This document shows, one piece after another, positions 695 to 51,973 of a DNA stretch of 52,232 nt (positions are counted from its first letter, which is position 1; every line of letters starts with the position of its first letter). Below the pieces are notes generated by a model. That model saw only the letters and a program-made list of their open reading frames with translations, made no database searches and was not told the origin of the DNA. Both the position numbers and the translations under genes were made by a program. This stretch comes from an uncultured bacterium (lineage in GTDB: Bacteria; Bacteroidota; Bacteroidia; Bacteroidales; CAIXTV01), in the NCBI GenBank assembly GCA_903922465.1, contig CAIXTV010000215.1, positions 1 to 52,232 of the forward strand, read 5' to 3'.

Positions 695-3600
695 ATGAAA
701 AAAACGTACTTATTGCTTGTAAGAAGATTTTCTCCAAACTTAATTATGATGCTTATCTTTATAATGTTTGGCTTTTGTCAGGGTGTGAATGCCCAAACAC
801 CCCTAACCACCGAGACATTTGAAGGGACATTTCCCAATACGGGATGGGCTATTGGTGGAACTGGCACAACTGCAGTAACAAAAAACACTGCATATAGCGC
901 ATGTTCTACATATCCTCAAACAAACAATTGTGCAATTTTTGACTCATATAATAATCTTAGTCCAACTTATACGTTTTTGACTACTCCTACTTTTAGTTTA
1001 GCTGGTTATACAGCTGCTACTCTAAGCATTGATTTAATAAATATGGGGGTTGCAAATACTACTTTTGTAGTTACTCTTTCAACTGATGGAGGTACTACTT
1101 ATCCAAATACAATTGCTTCAAATCCTAAATCAACAGGTGTTGTTTTTACAAATAAAACATATAGCTTAACTCCCTATATCAATCAAGCCAATGTTAAAAT
1201 TAAGTTCCAGTTGACAAGTAATTATTCGTCTGACAAGTGTGCGAATGATGTTTTCCTCGATAATGTGGGTGTTACAGGAACCTTATGCCCAGCGACAATT
1301 ACAGGGAGCACCCCTGCAGCCCTATGTGGAGTGGGAAGTGCAACTTTAGGAGCAACAGGGTCGGCAGGTACAACTTTAAACTGGTATGCAGCTGCAACCG
1401 GAGGAACGTCTTTGGGGACAGGAGAAACCTTTGTTACTCCTAGTCTTTCCACTACGACAACTTATTATGTAGACGCCACCTCAACTTGCACATCGGGCAG
1501 GACAGCAGTAGTTGCTGCTATTACACCTTCAGCAGTTGGAGCTATCACTGGTTCTGCAACTCCTGTGGTTGGTTCATCACAGGTCTATTCGGTTACTAAT
1601 ATTCTTTCTACAACCTTTAACTGGACATTTCCGGCAGATTGGGTGCAAACGGCCGGAAATACAACAAATTCAGTTACTGTAACAGTTGGTGCCACTAGCG
1701 GAAATGTTGGCGTTGCACCATCCAATACTTGCGGAACCACTGCTAATACTTTGGCTACTACAGTAAATATGACTATGACATTAACATCAGGCACGAGTTG
1801 GAAATGTCCCCCAGGAGTAACCTTAATAAATGTTGAATGCCGTGGTGGCGGAGGCGGAGGAGGCGGTGCCTCAACCACAAGTGGAGCAGCAGGCGGTGGC
1901 GGTGCCGGAGGTTCATATTCTAAAGTGAGTAATATTGTTGTTGTCCCTGGGACATCATATTCTTATGCATTAGGTGCAGCCGGTACAGCCGGAGCATCGG
2001 GAGCATTAGGAGGCACAGGAGGTAGCACTACCTTTAATACCAATACGGTCATCGCTGTCGGCGGACCAGGTGGAAGTGGAGCAACAACAGCTGTTGGAGC
2101 AGCCGGTGGAATAGGTACAACCACAGGAAATACTGCAGGAACCAATTGGGCAGGAGGAAACGGTGCATCTGGAACAGCAAGTTCAAAAGGTGGAGGTGGA
2201 GGAGCAGGAGGAAGCACAAGCGCTGCTGGTGCAGCAGGTGTAGGAGCAGTTGGAGGAACCGGGATTTCACCTTGTGGAAATGGCGGCGCTGGATCAACAA
2301 CCAATGCAAATGGTTCTGCTGGAACAGTATACAGTAGTGGAGGGGGTGGAGCATATAGAACTAGCGGAACCAAAACAGGTGGAGCTGGAACTGCTGGCCA
2401 TATGATTATTACTGCTATTACTGCGGTTCCTTGTACGGGTGCAATAGGTGGAACAGCAATTGGGAATGCATCCTTTTGTGGTTCAGGAACCCCAACGATA
2501 AGTGCTAGTGGGTATTCAACAGGCACTGGCAGTGCTTATCAATGGCAGAATTCTGCTGATAACTCTCAATGGGTAGATTTTAACGGACAAACAACCCCCA
2601 ATGCATTGGTGACAGGCCTTGTTACGAGTACTACTTATTATAGGTTAAAAGTAAGTTGTACTGCTGGTTTATCCGTAGATTACTCAAATGTAATCACAGT
2701 TACCATTAAGCCAATTCCAACCGCAAGTGCAAACAATAATTCACCCATTTGTGCAGGCGGCACATTAAACTTAACTGGAACAAGTAATATTGGCACAACA
2801 TTTAGTTGGACAGGTCCTAATAGTTTTGTTTCAACAACACAAAATCCTAGTATTTCAAGCGTTAGTATTGCGGCAGGTGGAACGTATTCGTTAACTGCTA
2901 CGGAAAATGGATGTACATCAACGGCAAGCACAACTGTTGTAACTATTAATCCAGCACCAAGTGCTATTAGTATAGTGCAGAGTCCTTTGTCTGTTTGTTC
3001 CGGTAGCGTTGCAACTTTAACGGCAAGTGGGGGTGAATACTCGGTAAACACATTTAGCGATAACTTTAATGCGAGTTCCAGTAATTTTACCGCTGCTACA
3101 GTATCAGGTACAACAACTACTACAGCGACTTTAAATACTACCTATTTTGCAGAAGGCACAGGTTCGGTATATTTTAATACAAGTGGTTTTAGTTCTGTGG
3201 CAACTTATAGTTTAAATTCGAATATTAATTTATCGGGAGTTAGTTCTGCCCAGTTAATATTTTCTCAAATTGCAGCCATGGAAGGCAATTCTACCTCGTA
3301 TGATTATGGTTATGTTGAGTATTCTACAGATGGAGGAAGCACTTGGGTGGCTTTCCCAACAAGTTCTTATGCAGGTGCTGGAACATTATTTAATAGTGTA
3401 GTCAGTTTTTCAACAAAAAGTTATGCGAGCTGGATTACAGCTTTAACAACTGCTACGTCTTTGCCTACCAATAGTTTGTGGAAAACAGAAACCATTAATA
3501 TTCCAATAGCTGCTTTAACCAGTCAATTTAGAATACGTTTTCGTTATACTAACGATAGCAGCACAAACTATTATGGTTGGTTAATTGATAATTTGAAAAT

Positions 3601-6600
3601 CACAGCAGTAAAACCTCAGGTTAGTTGGACTCCAAGTACTGATTTATATACAGATGTTATTGCAACATCTGCTTATACAGGTAGTATGAATTCAGTAGTA
3701 TATGCGAAGCCAACTGCAAGTGAATCATATACGGCTACGGCTACTTTAGGAAGTTGCAGTAAGTCTGCCCTAATTACTATCAATCCAATTACATTACCTA
3801 GCATTTCTGTCGAAAATGCAACAATTTGTACAGGAGGATCTGCAGTGTTAACCGCAAATGGTGGATCAACTTATAGCTGGTCACCCTCAGCTAGCCTATC
3901 GGCTTCTACTGGCTCAGTTGTTACCGCTAATCCAACTGCTAGCACGATATATACCGTTACTGGAACTTCTGCTGAAGGATGTTCAAATACAACAACTGCT
4001 ACTGTTACATTAAACACTGCTGTCAACATTGCTTCACATTCAGGAAATCAAGTTATACTTGATGGAGGAACCGCAACATATTCGGTTAATGCAACGGGAA
4101 GTGGTCTGAGCTACCAATGGCAAGAGAATTCAGGAAGTGGTTTTGTTAATATTTTAGGAGCTCAAAGTGATACATACTCGTTTACAGGTGCTACTTCTAT
4201 GTCGGGATATCTGTATCATTGTATAGTTTCAGGTGCAGCTCCTTGCACATCTGTTACATCATCTGATGTAAGCCTAACTATAAGTTCCATCAGTATTTCA
4301 TCTCAACCCGTAAATCAAACAGTTTGCAGTAACGAAACTGCAATATTTTCAATAGCGACCTCTGACGGGGTGACTTCATACCTATGGCAAATTAGCACCG
4401 ATAATGGTGTCTCATGGTTGGATTTAGCAGAAGAAACAAATGTTAGCTTACATTTATCAGGCCTCACTTCTTTGAATACTGGAAATAAATACAGATGTAG
4501 TTTAAATGGAGGGGCTGTTATTTCAGATCCTGCCTTGTTAACCGTGCATGATGCCGTTTTAATAGTGACACAACCTATATCGCATACGATTTGCTCAAAT
4601 ACTAGCTATGTCGAATTTTCAGTTAGTGCCAGTGGAAGTAATTTAACATATCAGTGGGAGTTTAGTCCTAATGGTGGTTCAACATGGTCTACAATAAGTG
4701 GGGCAAATTTAAACACCTTGACAATTAATACACCCAATTCCTCATTGAGTGGGAATGAATATCATGTTATAATTAGTGGCACTTCTCCTTGTTTGAGTGT
4801 AACTTCTAACTCTGCTACTTTAAATATAATGAATGCTAGTATAAGTGCATCTGATTCTGCCATTTGTTTAAATCAGAGTGTAACTTTGACAGCTGCTTTC
4901 CCTTCTTTGTCGGCCATTTATAGTTGGACTTGTTCAACAATAGGTAGTGGTTTAACTGTGGAAAACACCAATAATCCTTGTGTAATAACGCCAACTTTGG
5001 CAGGAACATATATTTATACTTTAACCGCATCAGGCGATGGATGTTCTGATACTAAAACCATAAGTATTACAGTGAATGCTCTCCCCAATATTACCAAGGC
5101 AACAGCTACTCCATCTGTAGTTTGCAGTGGTGCAACAATCTCCTTGGTTGGCGCGAGCGTTCCAGCTACATCAGGAACTGCAACTATTGGGGCAGGGGCA
5201 ACGACAGGGTCTAGCTATGATGCCATATTCTATCATTTGTATGGAGGAAGTAAAACACAACATATTTTGTTAAAATCAGAATTAAATGCAGCAGGACTAA
5301 CTACGGGAAACATTACTGGTTTAACAATCTCTGTAGCAACAGGAGGCGGTATTTATGCAGGTTTTGCGGTAAGCATGGCCTTGACAACTGCTTCGAATAT
5401 GAGCGCAGGAATAAACAATACTGCTACATTCTCAACAGTATATAGTAATAGTAGCTTGACAACTGCAACTGGTAATAATCAATTTGTTCTTTCTAGCCCA
5501 TTTTATTGGGATGGGGTTTCAAATATTATAGTGCAATTTTGTTGGAGTAATAACAATGGAGGGGGAACAAGTAATTATGCCAAAATGGATGCAACAACCT
5601 ATGTTTCGAGCGCATATTACCGTGCTGACAATCTTACTTTAGCTTTAATTTGTGGAGGGACTACTGCATCAGGCACTTCATCAAGCAGACCAAAGATTAT
5701 GCTTACAGGGCAGGTGGGTTCGGATCTCACATCCAACTACAACTGGAGTTGGTCTCCAAGTGGGGTAAATACTGCTTCAGGCTCAACCTCAATAATAAAT
5801 ACTTCAGCTTCAGTTGTTAACCAGGCCTATACTGTTACTGCAACAAATGTGTTAACTACTTGTTCAAGCAATTTGACTAGCAGTGCTGTTACGATTAATC
5901 CTTCACCTGTCACTCCTTTAGCTAATAATAGTATACAATGTGGTCCGAACACTCCTGCTTGTTCAGTTACTGGAAGTGGAATTATTGGAAATACTTTTTT
6001 GTGGTATATCACTGCAAGTGGAGGAACAGCCATAAGTGGGCAAAGTGCTTCTACCTTAAGTGCTTATCCCGTTTCCTCTACAACTATATTTTATGTGTCA
6101 GAAACAAACGGTAATTGTACAAGCCCAAGAGAAGCTGTTACTGCTACAGTAAACACTCCTCCTGCTATCAACCTTGTTGCAGGTAATACCGAAGTTTGTT
6201 TAGGAAGTTCAACTACTTTAACAGCATCGAGTTCGAATGTAGGGTATTCATATTCCTGGTCAAATGGATTGGGAGATGCTGCAAATATTACTGCAAGCCC
6301 ATTAGTAAACACTACCTATACAGTTACTGCAATTGATAATTCAGGAGGACCTGATAATGGATGCGTAAATTCGGGAAGTATCAGTTTAACAGTAAATCCA
6401 ATTCCAACAGTTCTTGTTGCAACAGCATCGAGCAATACAATTTGTATCGGGACTTCAGTGAATTTGAGTTCATCTTCAACGAGTAATTCATTCAATAATG
6501 CGACTCTTCTCTCTCCGACTAGTGATGGTGGGTTTGAGACAGGAGGAACACTTGCTTTAAACAACTGGACTGTTGTGAATGGCACTAAAAATATCTGGTC

Positions 6601-9600
6601 AGTTGGAACCGCAGCGGGTGTTCAGGCAGGAACAAATGCAGCTTTTATTGGGACTAGTTTTGTTGGAACAGGAAATGCAAGCGTGAATCATTTTTACAGA
6701 GATATTGTTGTGCCAGTAGGGTCTACAAATATTAAACTAATGTTTTATTTGAAAATGCCAATATTAGATGCCGGCTATGATTATTTGAAAATATTTACTA
6801 CAACTAATAGCAACGTTCCAGTTGCAGGGACTTTGCCAGCAAGTGGTTATACGGAAGTTTTTACAAATGACGCGATTGCATACAGCACCTATACTTTACA
6901 AACAGTGAATCTTCCAAATGCCCTCGCAGGAACTACTGTGAGATTAGTTTTTACTTATAAGTGTGATGCAGTTGCGAACTATGCTGTTCCTGCAGTGGAT
7001 AACATTTCTGTTACCTCAGTGATACCAATATCTTCTACCTATGCATGGGTGTCTAATCCTGTAGGATTTACTTCGGATTCTCAAAATCCATCAAGTGTTA
7101 CTCCTTTTATAAACACACAGTATACTGTTACTGCTCAAAACAGTTTTGGATGTACTAACACTGCTTCAGCTTCGGTTACGGTAAATGAACTTCCACAAGG
7201 TAGCTTATCAGCAAATGGGCCTTTCTGTGTTACAAGCGTAGGTCAATTAACATGGACTGCCACTGCAGGAACAGGCCCTTTTACAATAGTATATAAAGAA
7301 AATGACGGAGCAAATCATACTGCTACAGGTGTTATTAGCGGAATTCCTTTTGATGTGTATACAAATCCTATTATTGTAACAACAAATTATACCTTAGTGT
7401 CGGTCACTGATGTTAATTGTAGCAGAAACAGTAACTTTATAGGAGGATCGGCTAGTATAATCATAAACCCAATTCCTCAGGGAAGTTTAAGTGCAAATGG
7501 GCCATTTTGTGCAACCGGACTTGGGTTGTTAACTCTTACCTCTACTTCAGGAAGTGGAATGTATAATGTAATTTATAATGATGGAATCTCTGATCAATCG
7601 GTTGATGCTGTTGTCAGTGGAACTCCATTTGGAGTAGCAGTCACTCCTGTGACAACTACTACAAACTATAATTTAGTATCGATAACTGATGTTGGTACAA
7701 ATTGTGCAAGAAGCAATGGGTTTACAGTTGCTTTAACAAGTATCCCAGTTTATGCATACCCAAGTTTATCTAGTGTTAATATTAGTAATTCTGAGTTATG
7801 TTCAGGAAGCCCTGCAAATATTTTACTCTCGGGCTTGCTTAGTAATACCCTGCAAACAATTAGTTATAATATAAATGGTGGAGGTTTAATGAATGTTAGT
7901 GTGACTTCTGATATTAATGGAGAGGCAAGTTTCAATACAATAAACTTATCCTCAGTGAATAGCTTACAGAGTATTGTTATTTCAAATATAAGCCGTAATG
8001 ATGTATTCCCTAATTGTTCTTTCGACCCAATTAATAATAATACTGTAACACTCCCTGTGATAAGTGAATTACCATCTCAGCCGATAGTAAGTGTTTTGCA
8101 GCCAACTTGCACTGAAGCGACAGGGATAGTTAATGTTACTTCTGCTATAGCAGGATTAACTTTTAGTATTGACGGAGTTAATTATATTAATACAACCGGT
8201 GTATTTAATGGGATTTCTGCAGGCGGTTCTTATAGTATTACTGCAAAAAATACAAATGGGTGTGTTTCTCTAGCATTAACAGGAATCTTGGATAATCAGC
8301 CATCAACCCCATTGCAACCATTAGTAAGTGTGATCCAGCCGACCTGTCTTGATGCAAGCGGAATAGTTAGCGTTACATCTGATATTTCAGGATTAAGTTT
8401 CAGTATTGATGGTGTTAACTACAATAATATCAATGGTATATTCAATGGAATTCCTGCTGGTAGTTCATACAGTATCACAGCAAAGAATACCAATGGGTGT
8501 ATTTCTATTGCCACAGTTGGAAGTATAGATGCTCAGCCATCGACTCCTTTGCAACCTAATGTAATTGTTACTCAGCCAACTTGCAATATGGCTACAGGAA
8601 CAGTAAGTGTTACGTCTGATATTAATGGATTGATTTTTAGTATTGACGGAGTCAACTATAATAATACAACAGGTATATTTAATGGGATTTCTGCAGGTGG
8701 TTCTTATAGTATAACAGCAAAGAACGCCGAAGGATGCTTCTCCATGGCAAGAACTGGGACGATAAATGCACAGCCTTTAACTCCCTTACAACCAATAGTA
8801 AGTGTTGCCCAACCTAGTTGTATAGTTGCAACAGGGACATTAAGTGTAGCATCTAGTCTTATTGGACTTACTTTTAGTAATGATGGAATAAACTATAATA
8901 ATACCACAGGTATTTTTAATGGAATCCCTGCTGGTGGATCCTATAGTATAACTGCTAAAAATGTTAGTGGATGTGTTTCTGCTACAACAACAGGGACTGT
9001 TAATGTTCAGCCCATTACACCTACTGCCCCAATAGTTGGGACTTTAACTCAGCCAAGCTGTGCATTAGCTACTGGTAGTGTGATTTTAAGTGGTTTGCCT
9101 GCGGGAAGCTGGACTATTAACCCTGGAGCTATAAATGGTTCAACTTCAACAACAAATATTTCTGCATTGGTTTCAGGTGGTCATTTATTTACTGTAACAA
9201 ATTCAATGGGATGTACTTCAGTTTCTTCTGCTAATGTTCAAATTAATGTTCAACCAGTAACACCGTTAGCCCCTGTTGCTCTTGCTGCGAATGGGTTGAT
9301 GGGTAATAGATTTACAGCCAATTGGAATGCTGTGAGTGGAGCAATAGCTTATGCAATTGATGTTTCATTAAATAATACTTTTACCAGTTTTGTTGCCGGC
9401 TATAATAATTTAGTAGTTGGCGCTAACCTAACAAGCATTATTAGTGGCTTATCGAATGGTACTATCTACTATTATCGTGTCAGAGCCTCTAATGCAACTT
9501 GTACAAGTGTCAATTCTAATGTTATTACTGCAAACACCTTGGGTCTTCCTACACTTACTACATCTGTAATTAGTTCAATTACTTTTAACACTGCAAGCAG

Positions 9601-11452
9601 TGGTGGTAATATTATTTCTGATGGTGGTTCAAGTGTTACTGCCAGAGGAATTTGTTGGAATACAATAGGAACTCCAACTATTGCAGATAACATTATCTCA
9701 AATGCTACAGGAATTGGAGCGTTTTCCTCTAATCTCTCCGGCCTCACTGCAGGGACAACTTATTTTGTTAGGGCTTATGCTACAAATAGTGTTGGGACAT
9801 CATACGGAAATCAAATTTCTTTCAATACTCCTTCAGGAGTAGGAATTATAGTAAGTAATAATAATGATGCTGGGGCAGGTTCTTTGCGATATGCTCTTAG
9901 TAATGTAACTAGCGGAGGTACGATTACATTTACTTCCGGCATTGATGGACAAACTATAAATTTACTTACGGGAACTCTTACTATTGATAAGAATGTTATC
10001 CTTGATAATTCAAATCACATCACAGGAATTACTGTTAGTGGCAGTTCAGACAATATTATTATTAATGCTGGAAGAACATTGACTTTAGCGAGTGGTAGTA
10101 AACTAACAATTACTGGTGCTATTAGAAACAATGCAGGTGCGAGTGGTTTTATAATATCGTCAGGGGCATCCTTCATTCAAAATAATGTAGATTTACCTGC
10201 AACTGCTCAAAGGGTTCTAAATAATGGATGGCATTTGTTTGGCTCTCCTTTTAAGAAAAGTATGAGTGCAATGCTCTCCAGTATAACCCCTACAGGCAGT
10301 TCAACTCAGTTGTTGCCTTATGCTAATGGCACAGGTTGGGGGGCAAATGTTACTTCATCAGTGTATTTCTTATTGCCAACAACAGGTTATGCTATAAGGC
10401 CAGTCGTTTCATTTACGGCTACATTAAGTGGAAACCTCTTTTACAGTCCAATAATTTTTGACTATACAAGCTCATTAATATATAATGGTACTACATCTTC
10501 TCAGAGTTGGAATCTTATGGCAAACCCATATACTTCCTATATTAATTGGAACTTGTTAGGCAAAACCAATATTAGTACCTCCTTGTATTTATGGGATAAT
10601 AGCTTGTCTTTAACTGCACCAACTACCAATATTGCTAATTTTAGAACCTATAATTCAATGACAGGGATTGGTGTTCCTGCAGGTACTTTGCCATACATTG
10701 CTCCTATGCAAGGATTCTTCGTGAAAGCAACTTATATTGCCCCAAAACTTACTTTCCCTCCTACAGCCCGTACACATAGTTCCGCAAGTTTCTATAAAGA
10801 GGCTTCTAATACTGAAATATTGCTGCGTTTAAAAACTGAAACTGAACTTGGAAATGATGAATTAGCGATTTGCAAAAATACCGATGCGAAAAAATCTTTT
10901 GAAGGGTTTGATTCGGAAAAGATGTTCAATGATTTACCGATTGAAATGTACACCCAATCTTCAACTGGGGAGAAACTTATTATTAATACCATTGATAAAA
11001 CTAATGTTGTTATTCCAGTTGGAATTAATATTGCAAATGGTTCAAAAGCTAAGATCATCGCTTTTGGATTAGAAAGCAACGAACAAGTTTATCTTGAAGA
11101 CCGTTTTAAAGGTAAGTTGATTAGTCTTTATGAAAATACAGCTTATGAATTTGATTTTTCATCAGAAGCTATTATCGGAAGATTCTTTATTCGTTTTGGA
11201 GACATTAATTCCCCATTAAACAATTCAGATGTTAAGGTGTTTGAAAACAATGATCAGCTCAATATTATTGCTCAGACTGGAGAAGAATTGCAACAAATAG
11301 AAGTCTATTCTTTAACTGGAGCATGTGTTTTTAAATCGGATATAAGTGGAAGTAATGTGTTTAATGCCAAATTAAACTTATCATCTGCAATGTATTTGGT
11401 TAGAGTGAAAACTTCCATCTCAACACAAAATGTAAAAGTAAACTGGAAATAA
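695..11452 (+). CDS. Giant multidomain T9SS-secreted adhesin-like protein
   Basis: 3585 aa. Residues 1-34 form a signal peptide ending in VNAQ. A MAM/jelly-roll-like module follows (about 36-195, TETFEGTFP...), then a glycine-rich module (about 382-568, with a run of eight Gly). A long series of Ig/PKD-like repeats with spaced cysteines comes next, interrupted by further MAM-like modules near residues 785-972 and 1930-2110. Four 79-aa repeats start at residue 2463 and look like SprB-type repeats; a diverged fifth follows. Then come a fibronectin-III-like domain (about 2858-2950), a DAGAGSLRYAL beta-helix-type segment (about 3050) and a C-terminal type A sorting domain (last ~75 residues). Established for such proteins: export by T9SS and attachment to or release from the cell surface. 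The inferred role is adhesion or gliding, but the ligand is unknown. The C-terminal third shares its module order with the next gene. Confidence 0.9.
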   Translation: MKKTYLLLVRRFSPNLIMMLIFIMFGFCQGVNAQTPLTTETFEGTFPNTGWAIGGTGTTAVTKNTAYSACSTYPQTNNCAIFDSYNNLSPTYTFLTTPTFSLAGYTAATLSIDLINMGVANTTFVVTLSTDGGTTYPNTIASNPKSTGVVFTNKTYSLTPYINQANVKIKFQLTSNYSSDKCANDVFLDNVGVTGTLCPATITGSTPAALCGVGSATLGATGSAGTTLNWYAAATGGTSLGTGETFVTPSLSTTTTYYVDATSTCTSGRTAVVAAITPSAVGAITGSATPVVGSSQVYSVTNILSTTFNWTFPADWVQTAGNTTNSVTVTVGATSGNVGVAPSNTCGTTANTLATTVNMTMTLTSGTSWKCPPGVTLINVECRGGGGGGGGASTTSGAAGGGGAGGSYSKVSNIVVVPGTSYSYALGAAGTAGASGALGGTGGSTTFNTNTVIAVGGPGGSGATTAVGAAGGIGTTTGNTAGTNWAGGNGASGTASSKGGGGGAGGSTSAAGAAGVGAVGGTGISPCGNGGAGSTTNANGSAGTVYSSGGGGAYRTSGTKTGGAGTAGHMIITAITAVPCTGAIGGTAIGNASFCGSGTPTISASGYSTGTGSAYQWQNSADNSQWVDFNGQTTPNALVTGLVTSTTYYRLKVSCTAGLSVDYSNVITVTIKPIPTASANNNSPICAGGTLNLTGTSNIGTTFSWTGPNSFVSTTQNPSISSVSIAAGGTYSLTATENGCTSTASTTVVTINPAPSAISIVQSPLSVCSGSVATLTASGGEYSVNTFSDNFNASSSNFTAATVSGTTTTTATLNTTYFAEGTGSVYFNTSGFSSVATYSLNSNINLSGVSSAQLIFSQIAAMEGNSTSYDYGYVEYSTDGGSTWVAFPTSSYAGAGTLFNSVVSFSTKSYASWITALTTATSLPTNSLWKTETINIPIAALTSQFRIRFRYTNDSSTNYYGWLIDNLKITAVKPQVSWTPSTDLYTDVIATSAYTGSMNSVVYAKPTASESYTATATLGSCSKSALITINPITLPSISVENATICTGGSAVLTANGGSTYSWSPSASLSASTGSVVTANPTASTIYTVTGTSAEGCSNTTTATVTLNTAVNIASHSGNQVILDGGTATYSVNATGSGLSYQWQENSGSGFVNILGAQSDTYSFTGATSMSGYLYHCIVSGAAPCTSVTSSDVSLTISSISISSQPVNQTVCSNETAIFSIATSDGVTSYLWQISTDNGVSWLDLAEETNVSLHLSGLTSLNTGNKYRCSLNGGAVISDPALLTVHDAVLIVTQPISHTICSNTSYVEFSVSASGSNLTYQWEFSPNGGSTWSTISGANLNTLTINTPNSSLSGNEYHVIISGTSPCLSVTSNSATLNIMNASISASDSAICLNQSVTLTAAFPSLSAIYSWTCSTIGSGLTVENTNNPCVITPTLAGTYIYTLTASGDGCSDTKTISITVNALPNITKATATPSVVCSGATISLVGASVPATSGTATIGAGATTGSSYDAIFYHLYGGSKTQHILLKSELNAAGLTTGNITGLTISVATGGGIYAGFAVSMALTTASNMSAGINNTATFSTVYSNSSLTTATGNNQFVLSSPFYWDGVSNIIVQFCWSNNNGGGTSNYAKMDATTYVSSAYYRADNLTLALICGGTTASGTSSSRPKIMLTGQVGSDLTSNYNWSWSPSGVNTASGSTSIINTSASVVNQAYTVTATNVLTTCSSNLTSSAVTINPSPVTPLANNSIQCGPNTPACSVTGSGIIGNTFLWYITASGGTAISGQSASTLSAYPVSSTTIFYVSETNGNCTSPREAVTATVNTPPAINLVAGNTEVCLGSSTTLTASSSNVGYSYSWSNGLGDAANITASPLVNTTYTVTAIDNSGGPDNGCVNSGSISLTVNPIPTVLVATASSNTICIGTSVNLSSSSTSNSFNNATLLSPTSDGGFETGGTLALNNWTVVNGTKNIWSVGTAAGVQAGTNAAFIGTSFVGTGNASVNHFYRDIVVPVGSTNIKLMFYLKMPILDAGYDYLKIFTTTNSNVPVAGTLPASGYTEVFTNDAIAYSTYTLQTVNLPNALAGTTVRLVFTYKCDAVANYAVPAVDNISVTSVIPISSTYAWVSNPVGFTSDSQNPSSVTPFINTQYTVTAQNSFGCTNTASASVTVNELPQGSLSANGPFCVTSVGQLTWTATAGTGPFTIVYKENDGANHTATGVISGIPFDVYTNPIIVTTNYTLVSVTDVNCSRNSNFIGGSASIIINPIPQGSLSANGPFCATGLGLLTLTSTSGSGMYNVIYNDGISDQSVDAVVSGTPFGVAVTPVTTTTNYNLVSITDVGTNCARSNGFTVALTSIPVYAYPSLSSVNISNSELCSGSPANILLSGLLSNTLQTISYNINGGGLMNVSVTSDINGEASFNTINLSSVNSLQSIVISNISRNDVFPNCSFDPINNNTVTLPVISELPSQPIVSVLQPTCTEATGIVNVTSAIAGLTFSIDGVNYINTTGVFNGISAGGSYSITAKNTNGCVSLALTGILDNQPSTPLQPLVSVIQPTCLDASGIVSVTSDISGLSFSIDGVNYNNINGIFNGIPAGSSYSITAKNTNGCISIATVGSIDAQPSTPLQPNVIVTQPTCNMATGTVSVTSDINGLIFSIDGVNYNNTTGIFNGISAGGSYSITAKNAEGCFSMARTGTINAQPLTPLQPIVSVAQPSCIVATGTLSVASSLIGLTFSNDGINYNNTTGIFNGIPAGGSYSITAKNVSGCVSATTTGTVNVQPITPTAPIVGTLTQPSCALATGSVILSGLPAGSWTINPGAINGSTSTTNISALVSGGHLFTVTNSMGCTSVSSANVQINVQPVTPLAPVALAANGLMGNRFTANWNAVSGAIAYAIDVSLNNTFTSFVAGYNNLVVGANLTSIISGLSNGTIYYYRVRASNATCTSVNSNVITANTLGLPTLTTSVISSITFNTASSGGNIISDGGSSVTARGICWNTIGTPTIADNIISNATGIGAFSSNLSGLTAGTTYFVRAYATNSVGTSYGNQISFNTPSGVGIIVSNNNDAGAGSLRYALSNVTSGGTITFTSGIDGQTINLLTGTLTIDKNVILDNSNHITGITVSGSSDNIIINAGRTLTLASGSKLTITGAIRNNAGASGFIISSGASFIQNNVDLPATAQRVLNNGWHLFGSPFKKSMSAMLSSITPTGSSTQLLPYANGTGWGANVTSSVYFLLPTTGYAIRPVVSFTATLSGNLFYSPIIFDYTSSLIYNGTTSSQSWNLMANPYTSYINWNLLGKTNISTSLYLWDNSLSLTAPTTNIANFRTYNSMTGIGVPAGTLPYIAPMQGFFVKATYIAPKLTFPPTARTHSSASFYKEASNTEILLRLKTETELGNDELAICKNTDAKKSFEGFDSEKMFNDLPIEMYTQSSTGEKLIINTIDKTNVVIPVGINIANGSKAKIIAFGLESNEQVYLEDRFKGKLISLYENTAYEFDFSSEAIIGRFFIRFGDINSPLNNSDVKVFENNDQLNIIAQTGEELQQIEVYSLTGACVFKSDISGSNVFNAKLNLSSAMYLVRVKTSISTQNVKVNWK
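8081..9265 (+). repeat. Four 237-bp (79-aa) in-frame repeats plus a diverged fifth
   Basis: Copies begin at 8081, 8318, 8555 and 8792, each exactly 237 bp apart; a diverged fifth begins at 9029. Each encodes QPxC near the start, then FSIDGVNY, FNGI.AGGSYSITAKN and GC. The pattern resembles SprB-type adhesin repeats. The exact spacing with no indel suggests recent tandem duplication within the gene. Confidence 0.85.
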
Positions 11453-15994: not shown

Positions 15995-16002
15995 TACTTT
16001 TG
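15995..16002 (+). promoter_or_regulatory. -7 element TACTTTTG of the array-1 locus
   Basis: A perfect TAnnTTTG match 6 bp before an ATG at 16009. Transcription starting about 7 nt downstream would give an almost leaderless message that runs through the 21-bp array and into the 243-aa gene. No clear -33 TTG is seen. Confidence 0.5.
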
Positions 16003-16008
16003 TGCATT

Positions 16009-16326
16009 ATGAAAGCGAAGACCAAAATACATATGTCTTTTTTCGGGTTTTATTTAAGCAATAACAAGCTAAAGTATACACATTTCTACATGTGTTTTCC
16101 GCATATTAATACCATAACAGCCTTCATTGAAAGTAGCATAAGTAGACTCAAAAGTAGCATAGGCTTTGCAAAAATTAATGTTGGCATTCTTAAAAGTAGT
16201 GTTGATTTACTCAAAAGTAGCATCAACTTATTAGGAAGTAGCACAGCTATGTTCAAAAGTAGCATAGGCTTACCGGAAAGTAGCACAGCTAACATTTTTA
16301 GTAAAATCAATAACATTAATAACTGA
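16009..16326 (+). CDS. Small ORF spanning array 1, heptapeptide-repeat product (uncertain)
   Basis: 105 aa starting MKAKTKIH, directly behind a TAnnTTTG box. The first ~40 residues are unique. The rest is a degenerate seven-residue repeat of the kind KSSIxLL (ESSISRL, KSSIGFA, KSSVDLL, KSSINLL, KSSIGLP), produced by the 21-bp units. This is the only plus-strand frame free of stops across the array, because the other two meet TAG in the unit. A product would have a hydrophobic heptad pattern, but the unit includes prolines and glycines. The ORF could be a real small protein, a translated leader, or an incidental open frame in an array whose period is a multiple of three. No family is recognised. 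Confidence 0.35.
   Translation: MKAKTKIHMSFFGFYLSNNKLKYTHFYMCFPHINTITAFIESSISRLKSSIGFAKINVGILKSSVDLLKSSINLLGSSTAMFKSSIGLPESSTANIFSKINNINN
16129..16296 (+). repeat. 21-bp-period array 1 (8 units)
   Basis: Eight units, each exactly 21 bp. An 11-bp conserved half (AAAAGTAGCAT, with few changes) alternates with a 10-bp variable half. Unit 3 is the most diverged. The short A-tracts recur every two helical turns. The array lies 106 bp before the 243-aa gene on the same strand. Confidence 0.9.
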
Positions 16327-16402
16327 ACAATAATAATAATTCTTTCATGTAACAGTAAATAACAATAAACAAATAATCAATTAAATTAAGGAGGAATGCA
16401 AA

Positions 16403-17134
16403 ATGCCATCATCACAAAGTTCATTTGAAACACGCTACGGAAGGTTTTCCAGTGGCACAGGGTTAATTCAGGATATAACTACTTATAATCCTGCTAAGGA
16501 AATAATTAAAAAAGCAAATTTAACCTCATTTTTAGCAGAGGCTGCGGTAAAAGACGCAAAAGTTAATAGTACTAATACTTTTTATAGAGAAAAAGTAAAA
16601 GAGAGAAGAATTAATGGATTTAGAGACAAAGATAATTTGTCGAATTGTCTCGAAAACAGAATTAGAAACATATATTCATATGTAGGTGCCGAATTCGGAC
16701 ACGATTCGATTACCTACAAAAAGATAAAGAGCTTTCTCGATAAGATAGCTCCTAAATATGATAAGAAAGACCCAGGAGCTCCAGCAGGACAGGGGAAATC
16801 GCCTTCCGAACAAAGTTTCGTGGCTTTGATTGGTTTTGGAAGAAGAGTAGGAGAACTAATCGACGATTTGGGAGTAGCCTACAATCCGGGAAATACCGAT
16901 ATTACACTAGTAGCTTTGGGTGAATTATGCGATATGATGGAGACCTTAACAAAAGATATCGCTAAAGCTGAAATCGAATGGTCGAAAGCAGTTAAAGCAC
17001 GCAAAGAAATTTATGATGGGAAGGATGGTATGACTGACAGGATTAAAGCAATTAAAGATTATCTGGCAAGCTTCGATTTAGGGAAGAAAAGCCCAGATTA
17101 TATAAACTTTTGTCGCATCTTAGCAGGAAGATAA
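16403..17134 (+). CDS. Hypothetical protein (243 aa) downstream of a 21-bp array
   Basis: The start is fixed by a strong Shine-Dalgarno sequence, AAGGAGG at 16388-16394, 8 bp before ATG; this is unusual in Bacteroidota. There is no signal peptide or membrane segment. The composition is charged and probably mostly helical. The N-terminal half has NPAKEIIKKANLTSFL then a basic stretch (KVKERRINGFR). The C-terminal half has SPSEQSF, YNPGNTDITLVALGEL, a helical AKAEIEWSKAVKARKE segment and a terminal SPDYINFCRI. It resembles, from memory, a Bacteroidota-only family of ~230-240 aa proteins of unknown function with SxxQxSFD and YxPNE motifs; a profile search would be needed to confirm this. Function is unknown. 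It is probably co-transcribed with array 1. Confidence 0.8.
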   Translation: MPSSQSSFETRYGRFSSGTGLIQDITTYNPAKEIIKKANLTSFLAEAAVKDAKVNSTNTFYREKVKERRINGFRDKDNLSNCLENRIRNIYSYVGAEFGHDSITYKKIKSFLDKIAPKYDKKDPGAPAGQGKSPSEQSFVALIGFGRRVGELIDDLGVAYNPGNTDITLVALGELCDMMETLTKDIAKAEIEWSKAVKARKEIYDGKDGMTDRIKAIKDYLASFDLGKKSPDYINFCRILAGR

Positions 17135-28642: not shown

Positions 28643-29219
28643 GAATATGGAGGTTTGTAATAAGTGGCAAATGAACGAAAAAATAGCATATGAATGTGGA
28701 TAAGCATGATTTGTTTTGCATTTTTAACAGATGTGTTAAGGGTTTTCGGAGATCAATAGCTTTGAAATGAAACATTTTTGTTGGAAATCATATTGAAGAT
28801 TTAATGTGGATGATTTTAGCCGAAAAGCTGAAATGTAGAAATTTCTGTCACTTGCCATAATTCGACCGTCAACAGCCATAGTTTGACCATCAACAGCCAT
28901 AATTTGACCGTCAACAGCCATAGTTTGACCGTCAACAGCCATAGTTTGACCATCAACAGCCATAATTCGACCGTCAACAGCCATAGTTTGACCATCAACA
29001 GCCATAGTTTGACCGTCAACAGCCATAGTTCGATCGTCAACGGTCATAGTTCGATTGTTAACGGTCAAAATTCGACCATCAACAGCTAAACAATATAGCA
29101 AACTAATTCCATAGGCTGATTTCTTAGGCGAAATAGCACAATAGACCCATTTAGAGGCTAAAGTGGAGGTAAACCCAAAGCCTCTAAACAAGATCAAAAC
29201 AAACTGTTGTTCGGATTAC
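28643..29219. other. Intergenic region holding array 2
   Basis: 577 bp between two minus-strand genes. The centre is the 21-bp array. The flanks show no credible gene; open frames across the array on both strands are a by-product of a period divisible by three. Confidence 0.6.
28855..29085. repeat. 21-bp-period array 2 (11 units)
   Basis: Eleven units of exactly 21 bp, each CCATARTTYGACC followed by RTCAACAG. The first eight are almost identical, differing only at three positions; the last three (29023-29085) drift. One plus-strand frame (H-S-L-T-V-N-S) and two minus-strand frames (A-V-D-G-Q-T-M and L-L-T-V-K-L-W) stay open. It lies between the methyltransferase gene and a membrane protein gene. 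Confidence 0.93.
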
Positions 29220-37333: not shown

Positions 37334-37772
37334 ATCATTCCCATATCTGCAGAAATGATTTCTGCAGATGCAGATAGCATTTCTACACGAGCAAAAATCA
37401 TCACTGTACAAGTAGACATCATCACTGCACGAGCAAAAATCATCACTGTACAAGTAGAAATCATCACTGCACAATCAGACAGTATTACTGCATAAGCAGA
37501 CAGTTTTGCTGCATAAGCAATGGCCACTACTTCATATGCGAATGTCATAAATACACAATCGGGTGGGTCAGGTGCATGTGCGGCCACCTTTACTGCATAA
37601 GCAGCCACCATCGCTGCAAAGCAGGCGCCATAACTGCACGAGCAAGCGCCATGCCTGCACGTGCAGGCATGGCGCCCGATTAAGCAGACACTTAGCCTGC
37701 ACTGCAGCCGTCTTGCCTGCACGTGCAGGCGCAACGCTCGCTTAAGCAAAAACTGCGCCCGCTTTTGCACCC
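37334..37772. repeat. 21-bp-period array 3 (about 21 degenerate units)
   Basis: About 21 units; nearly all are 21 bp and two are 20 bp (starting 37607 and 37690). The shared core is CTGCACGAGCA, itself close to the palindrome CTGCACGTGCAG. Units 4-7 (37397-37480) are most alike, beginning ATCATCACTG. From about 37560 the array becomes clearly GC-richer than its surroundings and palindromes become longer. The minus strand has one frame open across nearly all of it (heptads of the TVMIFAR kind). Confidence 0.85.
37646..37675. repeat. 30-bp perfect palindrome inside array 3
   Basis: The left arm GCGCCATGCCTGCAC is followed directly by its exact reverse complement, with no spacer and the centre between 37660 and 37661. 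A second, 16-bp palindrome (GCCTGCAC and its complement) lies at 37715-37730. Confidence 0.9.
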
Positions 37773-49066: not shown

Positions 49067-49106
49067 GTTTAGGGGTTTAGGGGTTTAGGCGTTTAGGGGT
49101 TTAGGG
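49067..49106 (+). repeat. GTTTAGGG 8-bp tandem repeat
   Basis: Five 8-bp units in tandem (the third reads GTTTAGGC), beginning 3 bp after the stop codon of the 2Fe-2S protein gene, then decaying. The sequence resembles a eukaryotic telomere-type repeat by chance; TTAGGC-type tracts occur elsewhere in this window. Confidence 0.85.
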
Positions 49107-49147
49107 GTTTGGATATTTAGGCTTTCGGGTTAATATATTGATATTGT

Positions 49148-49399
49148 GTGCTTAATGTTGTTCATGTGTTGGTGAATCGTGTAGTTAGTTCAGCGAAAAC
49201 TGTAGTTAGCCGTGCGAAACACGTAGTTAGCCGTGCGAAAACTGTAGTTAGCCGAGCGAAAACTGTAGTTAACCGTGCGAAAAACGTAGTTGGCCGAGCG
49301 AATCATGACCATGATCGAACGAATCATGTGGATAAACTGACGAAAAATGTGGGTGTTTTTTGTGGACGAGAATACATATTTGGTGATTTGATGATTTGA
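49148..49399 (+). CDS. Small ORF spanning array 4, heptapeptide-repeat product (uncertain)
   Basis: 83 aa reading VVSRAKT-type heptads six to seven times, then a polar end. It is the only plus-strand frame without stops across the array. No promoter or ribosome site stands out. The basic heptads could form a helix that binds nucleic acid, but an incidental open frame is equally likely. Confidence 0.25.
   Translation: MLNVVHVLVNRVVSSAKTVVSRAKHVVSRAKTVVSRAKTVVNRAKNVVGRANHDHDRTNHVDKLTKNVGVFCGREYIFGDLMI
49163..49351 (+). repeat. 21-bp-period array 4 (9 units)
   Basis: Nine units of exactly 21 bp. The conserved part is GTTAGCCGTGCGAAA and a six-base part varies before the next unit, often ending GTA. 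The first unit and the last two are diverged. A-tracts recur every 21 bp. The array lies 367 bp before the 308-aa gene on the same strand. Confidence 0.88.
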
Positions 49400-49718: not shown

Positions 49719-50645
49719 ATGGATAAATCATTAAAAGAAAAAGCTACAACAATCAACAATGGAGTTGATTTTTTAACGAACCCTGACAATGTTGCTATTA
49801 TTGAAACAAATGATACAACTGATACTGATTCTGATCATTATATTGCTCAAGCTGCTGAAATGAATATCGAGATTGGAAAAGCTGAGTTAGATATAAAAGG
49901 AATAACTGAGAACCAAAACAATGCAAGAGGTGTTTTGGGGAAATATATGTTTGAAAAAATTTGTTCGCCTTCGTTGCGTTATGCACGCGAAATAAATGAT
50001 AAAAACGTTAAAGCATATTTTAATTTTACTGAAAACAAATTGACAAAATATCCTCTTTCGGGGGTTGTGCCTTTTTGTAATAATATTTTTAATAAATCGG
50101 AAGCTTTACTGTCTAGTGATTCTACTTATACAACTATAACTGGCATAACAAGCGGCATTATTACTGCGGGAAGAGCCAAACTGACCCTAGTTGAAGGGTT
50201 TTTGGGTATGCCAATAAATGCCCGCAAAGCAAAGGGTATTGCTTTGAGAAATGTAAAGAGGATACAGGATGGGATATTTGATTATGATTTTGAGAATTTA
50301 TATAATGATGCTTCATTTTTTGTTGACGCTCATCCTGATTTTGCGAAAGCTTTGAGGGAATTGAGTGGGATAACGGATTTGCCTACGCATCATACGGGTA
50401 TTTTTGGTGTTATGTCTGCCGAAAACGGCGATCCGATAATTGGTGGACAGATGGTTAATTTGGATTTGCCTAAACGCAAGGCTGTCGTTTCTGATAATTT
50501 GGGGAACTATAAGGATGAAATTTTTCGTGCGGGTTTATATCGCTTTAAATATAGTCATCCTGATTATATTGATGTGATTATTACACTGAAAATTAATAGA
50601 GGAATGAAAGTGCAACAGGATGTGATTTTGAAGAAGAAGCCTTAG
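49719..50645 (+). CDS. Hypothetical protein with C-terminal carboxypeptidase-regulatory-like domain
   Basis: 308 aa, no signal peptide. Residues 1-~220 are predicted helical and unfamiliar (HYIAQAAEMNIEIGKAEL; KAYFNFTENKLTKYPL; ARKAKGIALRNVKRI). About 225-308 resemble a CarboxypepD_reg-type beta domain: GVMSAENGDPIIGGQMVNL, a conserved DNLGNYKDEIFRAGLYRFKYSHPDY stretch (in part DNLGNYKDEIFRAGLYRF) and VQQDVILKKK at the end. Cytoplasmic forms of such domains are found in Bacteroidota proteins of unknown function. It follows array 4 and precedes a recombinase gene, so it may be part of a mobile or variable locus. Function unknown. Confidence 0.75.
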   Translation: MDKSLKEKATTINNGVDFLTNPDNVAIIETNDTTDTDSDHYIAQAAEMNIEIGKAELDIKGITENQNNARGVLGKYMFEKICSPSLRYAREINDKNVKAYFNFTENKLTKYPLSGVVPFCNNIFNKSEALLSSDSTYTTITGITSGIITAGRAKLTLVEGFLGMPINARKAKGIALRNVKRIQDGIFDYDFENLYNDASFFVDAHPDFAKALRELSGITDLPTHHTGIFGVMSAENGDPIIGGQMVNLDLPKRKAVVSDNLGNYKDEIFRAGLYRFKYSHPDYIDVIITLKINRGMKVQQDVILKKKP

Positions 50646-50716: not shown

Positions 50717-50717
50717 A

Positions 50718-50794
50718 ATTGAGAATGGACAGTTGACAGTTGAGAATGGAAAATTGACAATGGACAATTGAGAATGGACAGTTGAGAATGGGGG
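50718..50794. repeat. 7-bp-period ATTGAGA/ATGGACA tract
   Basis: Eleven 7-bp units in a row (ATTGAGA, ATGGACA, GTTGACA and variants), giving a 77-bp tract. Such TTGACAATGGACA-type runs are frequent between genes in Bacteroidota. The 7-bp period divides the 21-bp period of the four arrays, but the sequence is unrelated. Confidence 0.75.
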
Positions 50795-50828: not shown

Positions 50829-50851
50829 GGATGCTTATCAATTATAATATA

Positions 50852-51973
50852 ATGGAAACTCTTATTTTAACTTTGCAAGAATACGAAGGCAACGAAAGAT
50901 TGTTTGCCGAATTTCCATATAACAGAACAATTGTAGATATAATAAAAACTATACCTGGTGCAAGTTGGAGCTATAGTAAAAAACAATGGCATTTCAATTT
51001 GAACAAGCAAATAATAAAATTATTAAAGGAAAAATTAAATGGGATTGCCATTATTGATGTTTCGCAATTAAAAGCACAATTAGTTGAACGAAAACAAAAA
51101 CAAAATGAAATAAGATATGCTTCAATTGATGAGGAAACATCAAAAGCTTTAGAATACTTTACATTATGGATGGAACAAAAGCGATATAGCCCCGAAACAG
51201 TGAAAAATTATTTGAATCAGGCTTTACAATTTTTCAGATACTATCAACCCTTATCCTATAGGGAACTTGGAGTTAAAGAAGTTGAAAAATATAATCATGA
51301 AGTAATTATTGCTCATAATCTTTCAGTTTCGTTTCAGCGTGGATTGGTAGGTGCACTTAAACTCTTTTATAGTCAATGTGGCGATACAATAATGGATATC
51401 GAAAAACTTCAATCTCCTTTTAAAGAATCGCGTTTGCCGGATGTGCTTAGCAAAGAAGAAGTGCAGAAAATAATTAATGCAAGCAATAATAGTAAACATA
51501 AAGCATTATTAAGCATAATATATAGTTGTGGAATGCGAATAGGAGAAGCTCTTTCGCTGAAAATAAACGACATTGATAAGCAGCGGAAATTAATAAAAAT
51601 AAGACTTGCCAAAGGAAAGAAAGACAGATATGTTCCTTATTCGGATAAATTACGTTTGCTTTTACGAAAATATTACGATGATTGGAAGCCTAAAGAATAT
51701 TTGTTTGAAGGGCAATATGGAGGACCTTATTCTGAAGGCAGCGCCGCAAAGGTATTGCAACATGCTGTTGCCAAATGCAATATTAAAAAGCATGTAACCT
51801 TACATACACTTAGACACAGTTTTGCAACTCATTTATTAGAAGCAGGAACCGACATCAGATATATACAAGAATTGCTTGGACATAGTAATCCGAAAACTAC
51901 AATGATTTATACCCATGTGAGTAGTAAAAAAATAAGTGAAATAAAAAGTCCTTTAGATGATTTGGATATTTAA
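50852..51973 (+). CDS. Tyrosine recombinase (XerC/XerD-like integrase) with an extra N-terminal domain
   Basis: 373 aa from ATG 50852. Residues 1-~65 are an extra small domain ending IPGASWSYSKKQWHF, with the PGxxWxxxxKxW pattern seen in HARP-like modules. Residues ~95-175 form the SAM-like core-binding domain and ~195-360 the catalytic domain. The active-site residues are Arg229 (SCGMRIGEAL), a Lys near 254 (AKGKKDRYVP), His318 and Arg321 (HTLRHSFATHLL), His344 (LLGHSNPKTT) and Tyr353 (MIYTHV). All are present, so the enzyme is probably active. It lacks the extra insertion of integron IntI. The downstream flank is non-coding and structured, as expected for an attachment site. Confidence 0.9.
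   Translation: METLILTLQEYEGNERLFAEFPYNRTIVDIIKTIPGASWSYSKKQWHFNLNKQIIKLLKEKLNGIAIIDVSQLKAQLVERKQKQNEIRYASIDEETSKALEYFTLWMEQKRYSPETVKNYLNQALQFFRYYQPLSYRELGVKEVEKYNHEVIIAHNLSVSFQRGLVGALKLFYSQCGDTIMDIEKLQSPFKESRLPDVLSKEEVQKIINASNNSKHKALLSIIYSCGMRIGEALSLKINDIDKQRKLIKIRLAKGKKDRYVPYSDKLRLLLRKYYDDWKPKEYLFEGQYGGPYSEGSAAKVLQHAVAKCNIKKHVTLHTLRHSFATHLLEAGTDIRYIQELLGHSNPKTTMIYTHVSSKKISEIKSPLDDLDI

Follow-up and report, generated by a model that had tools for sequence, protein, structure and literature searches.

Family A genes of Bacteroidota and their adjoining 21-bp repeat arrays: a two-part unit proposed from comparative genomics

Genes of an undescribed protein family, here called family A, form together with an adjoining array of 21-bp direct repeats a two-part unit, a partner relation shown by comparative genomics. 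We describe this unit in a stretch of 52,232 nucleotides from an uncultured bacterium of the Bacteroidales (contig CAIXTV010000215.1; the whole stretch is called the window below) and in the loci of its homologues. A 21-bp array was detected within 800 bp of the gene in 85 of the 94 distinct family A loci for which both flanks were readable, the other nine of the 94 having no detected array. The array lay downstream of 80 of 97 family A genes, compared with 2 of 199 other genes of the same contigs (Fisher p = 2e-52, a value that overstates independence, as the loci share descent). Since the control genes come from the same records, composition or assembly cannot account for the association; against the shared descent of the loci stand the differences in unit sequence among loci and two further protein families, B and C, that show the same pattern. 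These counts were obtained after deduplication, in which proteins at least 95% identical were removed, leaving 102 loci, 94 of them with both flanks. Repeat rows reported by Tandem Repeats Finder (TRF) within 800 bp of the gene in 80 homologues had nearly all a period of 21, 42, 63 or 84, and such rows were rare beyond that distance. The preliminary description of the window had proposed a two-part unit, a proposal borne out by the varying 21-bp arrays at 85/94 loci; homologues consistently devoid of arrays were not seen. The array usually starts 4 to 200 bp past the stop codon, and the upstream array of the window is an exception to the downstream position usual in family A. In the source genome, a paralogue of the window gene (contig C258) is similarly preceded, at about 80 bp, by a 21-bp array of its own, and no array was detected at the remote third copy of this genome (C276).

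All elements of the window locus lie on the forward strand. The sequence TACTTTTG at 15995-16002 matches the Bacteroidota -7 box TAnnTTTG and is predicted to belong to a promoter; an ATG follows 6 bp on, at 16009, and the array about 115-120 bp downstream. From this ATG, an open frame of 105 aa (16009-16326; 108 aa when read from the TTG at 16000) runs across the array and translates into KSSIxLL-type heptads, although we judged it not to be a gene. The array itself, at 16117-16284, comprises 8 modelled units with every spacing equal to 21 in the unit model, and was also recovered by TRF (16211-16291, period 42) and by autocorrelation (lag 21 across 16114-16308). Its units conserve an AAAGTAG core, the remainder being variable, and copies of the core AAAGTAGC at 16130, 16151, 16214, 16256 and 16277 fall on a single shared 21-bp grid. 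In the entire window, AAAGTAGC occurs 10 times versus 2.0 +/- 1.2 expected, a count that 0 of 100 shuffles attained. A Shine-Dalgarno sequence AAGGAGG (16388-16394), separated from the start codon by a spacer of 8 nt, then precedes the family A gene (16403-17134), which encodes 243 aa. Box, ATG, heptad frame, Shine-Dalgarno sequence and gene were thus all located where the preliminary description had placed them, and the array-to-gene gap, which it gave as 106 bp, lies within the range of about 95-118 bp that results from the choice of the end of the degenerate array. No terminator was found in this interval, so that the array would here lie in the leader. The strong Shine-Dalgarno sequence is indeed as rare as had been claimed: AGGAGG stands upstream of 2 of the 376 sampled source-genome ORFs of at least 200 aa, and AAGGAGG is shared by the window gene and the paralogue, 59% identical to it, and absent from all others of 119 family loci. 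Both loci also present the same order of promoter box, array, Shine-Dalgarno sequence and gene, with the TAnnTTTG box at -387 from the gene in the paralogue locus (L002) and at -408 in the window. The location of the array between a putative promoter and the gene therefore holds in the window, but it fails as a general plan, since most homologues carry the array downstream. Elsewhere in the window, positions 695-11452 form one uninterrupted open frame of 3585 aa.

The window protein had no match in Pfam, NCBIfam, PHROGs or PADLOC. Neither PDB sequences nor Foldseek comparison of the family A model with PDB and BFVD yielded a usable hit, with no PDB fold reaching an E below 0.1, and no DNA-binding fold was recognisable in the fold searches. 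The protein is predicted to be all-helical (pLDDT 85, model without strands) and is composed of two homologous halves resulting from an internal duplication (hhalign E 4.7e-13). Members of the family are basic, with a median pI of 9.4 (9.1 for the window protein). In Foldseek, the window model (16403-17131; ma40c5741a673) weakly resembles four-helix bundles, among them 2rld of the S23 family (prob 0.80, E 0.75), which is mentioned as a lead only. Besides the window gene, the source genome holds two further copies, the 59% identical one on C258 and the remote one on C276. Of 395 Bacteroidia genomes, 39 had matches to the family profile, 6 at most in any one genome, and a scan of GTDB genomes retrieved 441 relatives, for the most part from Bacteroidota, of which 80 were kept for the analysis of flanks. 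Phage and plasmid records contained no relative. A single relative of the family, and none of the window protein itself, was found in a viral contig (L283), near a contig end; at 2104-2364, the frame 3' of the gene gives heptads (NSMYRCADSIIKCTHSIARYVGSILK) that correspond to a degenerate 21-bp array missed by TRF.

The period of the arrays is constant. Spacings between units were exactly 21 in 1022 of 1043 cases (98%), and the deviations were mostly of 1 or 2 bp in either direction, not of 3. The penalties of the unit finder favour 21, but TRF and autocorrelation, which are free of such bias, agree on this value and returned 21 and its multiples only. Arrays have a median size of 12 units. 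The sequence of the unit, on the contrary, is private to most loci and common to close relatives, among which it always keeps the same orientation: similarity of units between loci was found for 193 pairs in the sense direction versus 2 in reverse. This similarity declines with protein divergence and fades under about 75% protein identity, and units mostly differ between paralogues of one genome. Within degenerate arrays, conserved positions cluster in short cores, and 81% of 72 such arrays exceeded the 95% point of a null model of uniform decay; such cores inside each array imply sequence recognition. The window and paralogue arrays have the core AAAAGTAG in common (p 5e-4). An array of contig C29, without an adjoining family gene, also resembles the window unit, with a p-value of 1e-3 that is weaker than it looks because this array was picked by a search for the core. 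The averaged conservation profile gave no signal of paired sites within the unit at a distance of 10 bp, one for each half of the protein. Phased A-tract curvature was set aside by inspection, many cores being devoid of an A-tract.

Arrays of the same period are associated with other protein families. An upstream 21-bp array was present in 13 of the 16 members of family B with a readable upstream flank; relatives in this family show a C-terminal CarboxypepD_reg-like domain, and the family shares many genomes with family A. With a median pI of 6.5, family B is close to neutral yet array-linked, which weakens any simple argument for binding based on charge. Homology between families A and B was undetected by hhalign (probability 0.4%, E 0.14). 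In family C, which is helical plus Fn3-like, arrays are found on one or other side of the gene at most loci. The window harbors a family B gene of 308 aa at 49719-50645 (forward strand), whose relatives have 21-bp arrays upstream, and a 21-bp array detected by TRF and autocorrelation at 49180-49302 (array 4, same strand), 417 bp upstream of that gene, with a related kind of unit and outside the module itself. In the source genome, 40 arrays were counted in 754 kb, many of them beside other genes, and 3 were found in 780 kb sampled from eight other genomes. Two more 21-bp arrays of the window, at 28854-29086 and 37386-37668, have no adjoining gene of families A-C, and the unit of the former resembles those at L164:5614, L149:13064 (with a family B-like gene) and L179:1 above a shuffled null. 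The family B gene is adjoined by a tyrosine integrase with a Phage_int_SAM_4 domain (50831-51973), whose score of 204 against the integron integrase model TIGR02249 is below the cutoff of 265. Simple repeats, namely GTTTAGGG octamers at 49067-49110 and AATTGAC-type repeats of 7/14/21 bp at 50717-50791, flank the region of array 4 and family B, and similar low-complexity repeats recur at L156 and L194 of the source genome. Two related 255-aa proteins without Pfam match (L171:7783-8550 and L178:14327-15094), each with a 21-bp array just downstream, possibly represent a fourth array-linked family.

Between relatives whose genes are about 72-90% identical at the DNA level, homology mostly starts 0-390 bp before the gene and stops by the array; flanks of up to 6 kb are unrelated, although a few pairs, such as L066/L076, do share them. 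In Paludibacter, gene and array are carried by integrons, in which genes are separated by elements about 142 nt long that have RYYYAAC and GTTRRRY at their ends and contain a long hairpin; one such element lies directly after a 21-bp array, and one cassette is duplicated (94% across 1641 bp). An attC was found at 14 of 100 family loci searched, mainly in Paludibacter, with a narrow model by which other attC types may go undetected. The window locus had no match to this model and no dispersed repeat beside the module, and repeats elsewhere in the source genome look like low-complexity tails. Because the array stays with the gene whether or not an integron is present, it is to be assigned to the gene, and the two appear to move together as a portable unit.

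We propose, with a probability of roughly 0.4, that the module is a phased row of DNA sites bound by the adjacent family A protein, a reading drawn from comparison of genomes and predicted structure. The array would provide a series of short direct sites at intervals of 21 bp, or two turns of B-DNA, so that all sites would lie on the same face of the helix. The small, basic, helical protein with its two halves would most likely bind its own array cooperatively and form a nucleoprotein assembly, which may be likened to those of Rep proteins on iterons and of ParR on centromere repeats. The target would be DNA rather than RNA, and the assembly may serve in autoregulation, clustering or maintenance of the module. 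As the unit is mostly private to each module, modules within one genome would be largely orthogonal.

Iterons are direct repeats of about 20 bp, and the centromeres of ParR-type plasmids consist of direct repeats in tandem, each one or two helical turns long, with plasmid-specific units, beside the gene of the binding protein. As in the latter, the arrays described here are tandem direct repeats with locus-specific units adjoining a putative partner gene; unlike them, the module has no actin-like or other motor gene and its protein no ribbon-helix-helix. With iteron/Rep systems (RepE, TrfA; PMC4081077), it has in common a small protein built of two like domains and encoded beside direct repeats of about two helical turns, and Rep proteins are thought to read iterons in helical phase (PMC4081077). 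Rep proteins are, however, built of winged-helix domains (PMC4081077), whereas family A is predicted to be purely helical and without fold match, and neither family nor fold searches gave a Rep match. In addition, and unlike iteron replicons, the family A module is chromosomal, shows no AT-rich origin element and has its array mostly behind the gene. The layout of the window, with promoter, tandem repeats and a small protein gene, recalls ToxIN, in which the ToxI units are longer, pseudoknotted and separated by a terminator from toxN, the toxin being an endoribonuclease (PMC8860590). Family A differs by its 21-bp units, mostly downstream, its helical repeat protein and the position of its hairpins between the stop codon and the downstream array, and no match to a ToxN/AbiQ/CptN-like endoribonuclease was obtained with Pfam, NCBIfam, PADLOC or fold searches. 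The Paludibacter gene and array lie inside cassettes ending in attC, as in ordinary integron cassettes, but most family loci including the window lack an attC by the model used, and the array inside the cassette is distinct from attC. TAACTGA direct repeats form intergenic arrays in Beggiatoaceae, Cyanobacteria and a few Bacteroidetes including one Paludibacter species (PMC4679880); they have a fixed 7-bp unit and no partner gene, whereas the present arrays have a 21-bp period, private units and a defined partner family. A CRISPR array, for which nearly identical repeats, unique spacers of similar length and cas genes would be expected, was rejected, the 21-bp units being contiguous with only a short core conserved and the partner protein having no defence-system match.

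It seems unlikely that the array acts as RNA, a role in which the protein would bind the repeat units in the manner of a type III toxin-antitoxin system or an RNA sponge. In favour of it, the orientation of the array is fixed relative to the gene, the order of promoter box, repeats and gene in the window recalls that of toxI-toxN (PMC8860590), and carriage as an integron cassette that has a promoter region of its own would be in keeping with an addiction module; furthermore, in one third of the loci the array begins at most 30 bp after the stop codon and may be transcribed there. However, terminator-like hairpins with T-runs stand between stop codon and array in 26 of the 53 loci with a gap of at least 50 bp, compared with about 1.4 expected by chance for the gaps of all 86 loci, which in many loci places the array, by prediction, outside the transcript of the gene. 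No promoter enrichment was seen in this gap. Upstream of family A genes, promoter boxes are over-represented between -100 and -50. Given that the gap, where wide enough, holds a terminator-like hairpin about half of the time, a role as DNA fits better than one as RNA. RNA folding of the arrays is moreover weak (mean z of -0.47 sense and -0.18 antisense), the window locus has no Rfam match, searches among type III toxin families and folds were negative, mostly variable units of 21 nt are probably too short for ToxI pseudoknots, and an exact spacing of 21 has no obvious reason at the RNA level. An operator role, as initially suggested for the array, or a leader role can likewise not be the common function, given that arrays are mostly downstream and often behind such a hairpin; a function common to upstream and downstream layouts would more easily be exerted at the DNA level. 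At L075, L084 and L094, the hairpins in the gene-array gap often hold CTGCGGTT. Many arrays likewise have CTGC as their core, and arrays may have grown from terminator-like hairpins or share recognition with them. That the array encodes a heptad-repeat mini-protein, another option of the preliminary description, is hardly credible and already contradicted. The 105-aa frame of the window is open behind a promoter-like box and 21 is a multiple of 3, but open frames across 92 arrays numbered 46 in sense and 47 in antisense, 51 arrays had no open sense frame, and stops interrupt the KSSI frame in the paralogue array, on which grounds this candidate was rejected. Both strand counts lie above the column-permuted mean of 35.5; the permuted null alone would therefore be misleading, and the antisense strand is the better control. 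KSSI is the translated form of the common DNA core AAAAGTAG[CT]AT.

Two other readings retain the array as DNA or deprive it of any function. The array could be a cis-acting element for a general host factor involved in chromosome organisation, insulation, recombination or replication, with a neighbouring protein that does not bind it, which we consider somewhat unlikely. Arrays are also found beside other genes in the source genome (the 40 in 754 kb), three families are array-linked of which one is near neutral in charge, and the variety of units makes a single shared sequence-specific reader hard to imagine, so that spacing or shape would have to be the signal. Against this stand the rarity of arrays away from the families elsewhere (3 in 780 kb of eight genomes; 2 of 199 control genes) and the short cores of each array, which imply that sequence is recognised. 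It is quite improbable that the array is a functionless passenger minisatellite, arisen once by the gene, maintained by slippage and borne by cassettes. The free drift of units among lineages, their homogenisation within arrays and the higher-order periods of 42 and 63 bp would suit such an origin, but a period of 21 persists through the loss of sequence, conservation is focused in short cores, and three families with arrays on different sides have the same period.

Beyond family A, we tentatively consider it possible that at least three small-protein families of Bacteroidota each have a private phased 21-bp array, that these pairs serve as orthogonal protein-DNA addresses, and that extra arrays are distant partner sites, for which the C29 array is a candidate. 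The gene-plus-array unit, present in about one tenth of the sampled Bacteroidia genomes, seems undescribed, and no description of such modules was found in the open literature, to which the search was confined. Cultured Pedobacter strains contain two modules with differing units, among them Pedobacter terrae DSM 17933 with its family A loci L091 and L112. If the proteins do not recognise their arrays, it would still have to be explained why the period is fixed at 21 bp and why three families are linked to arrays; if they do, orthogonal protein-DNA pairs of a single design would exist in nature in large number.
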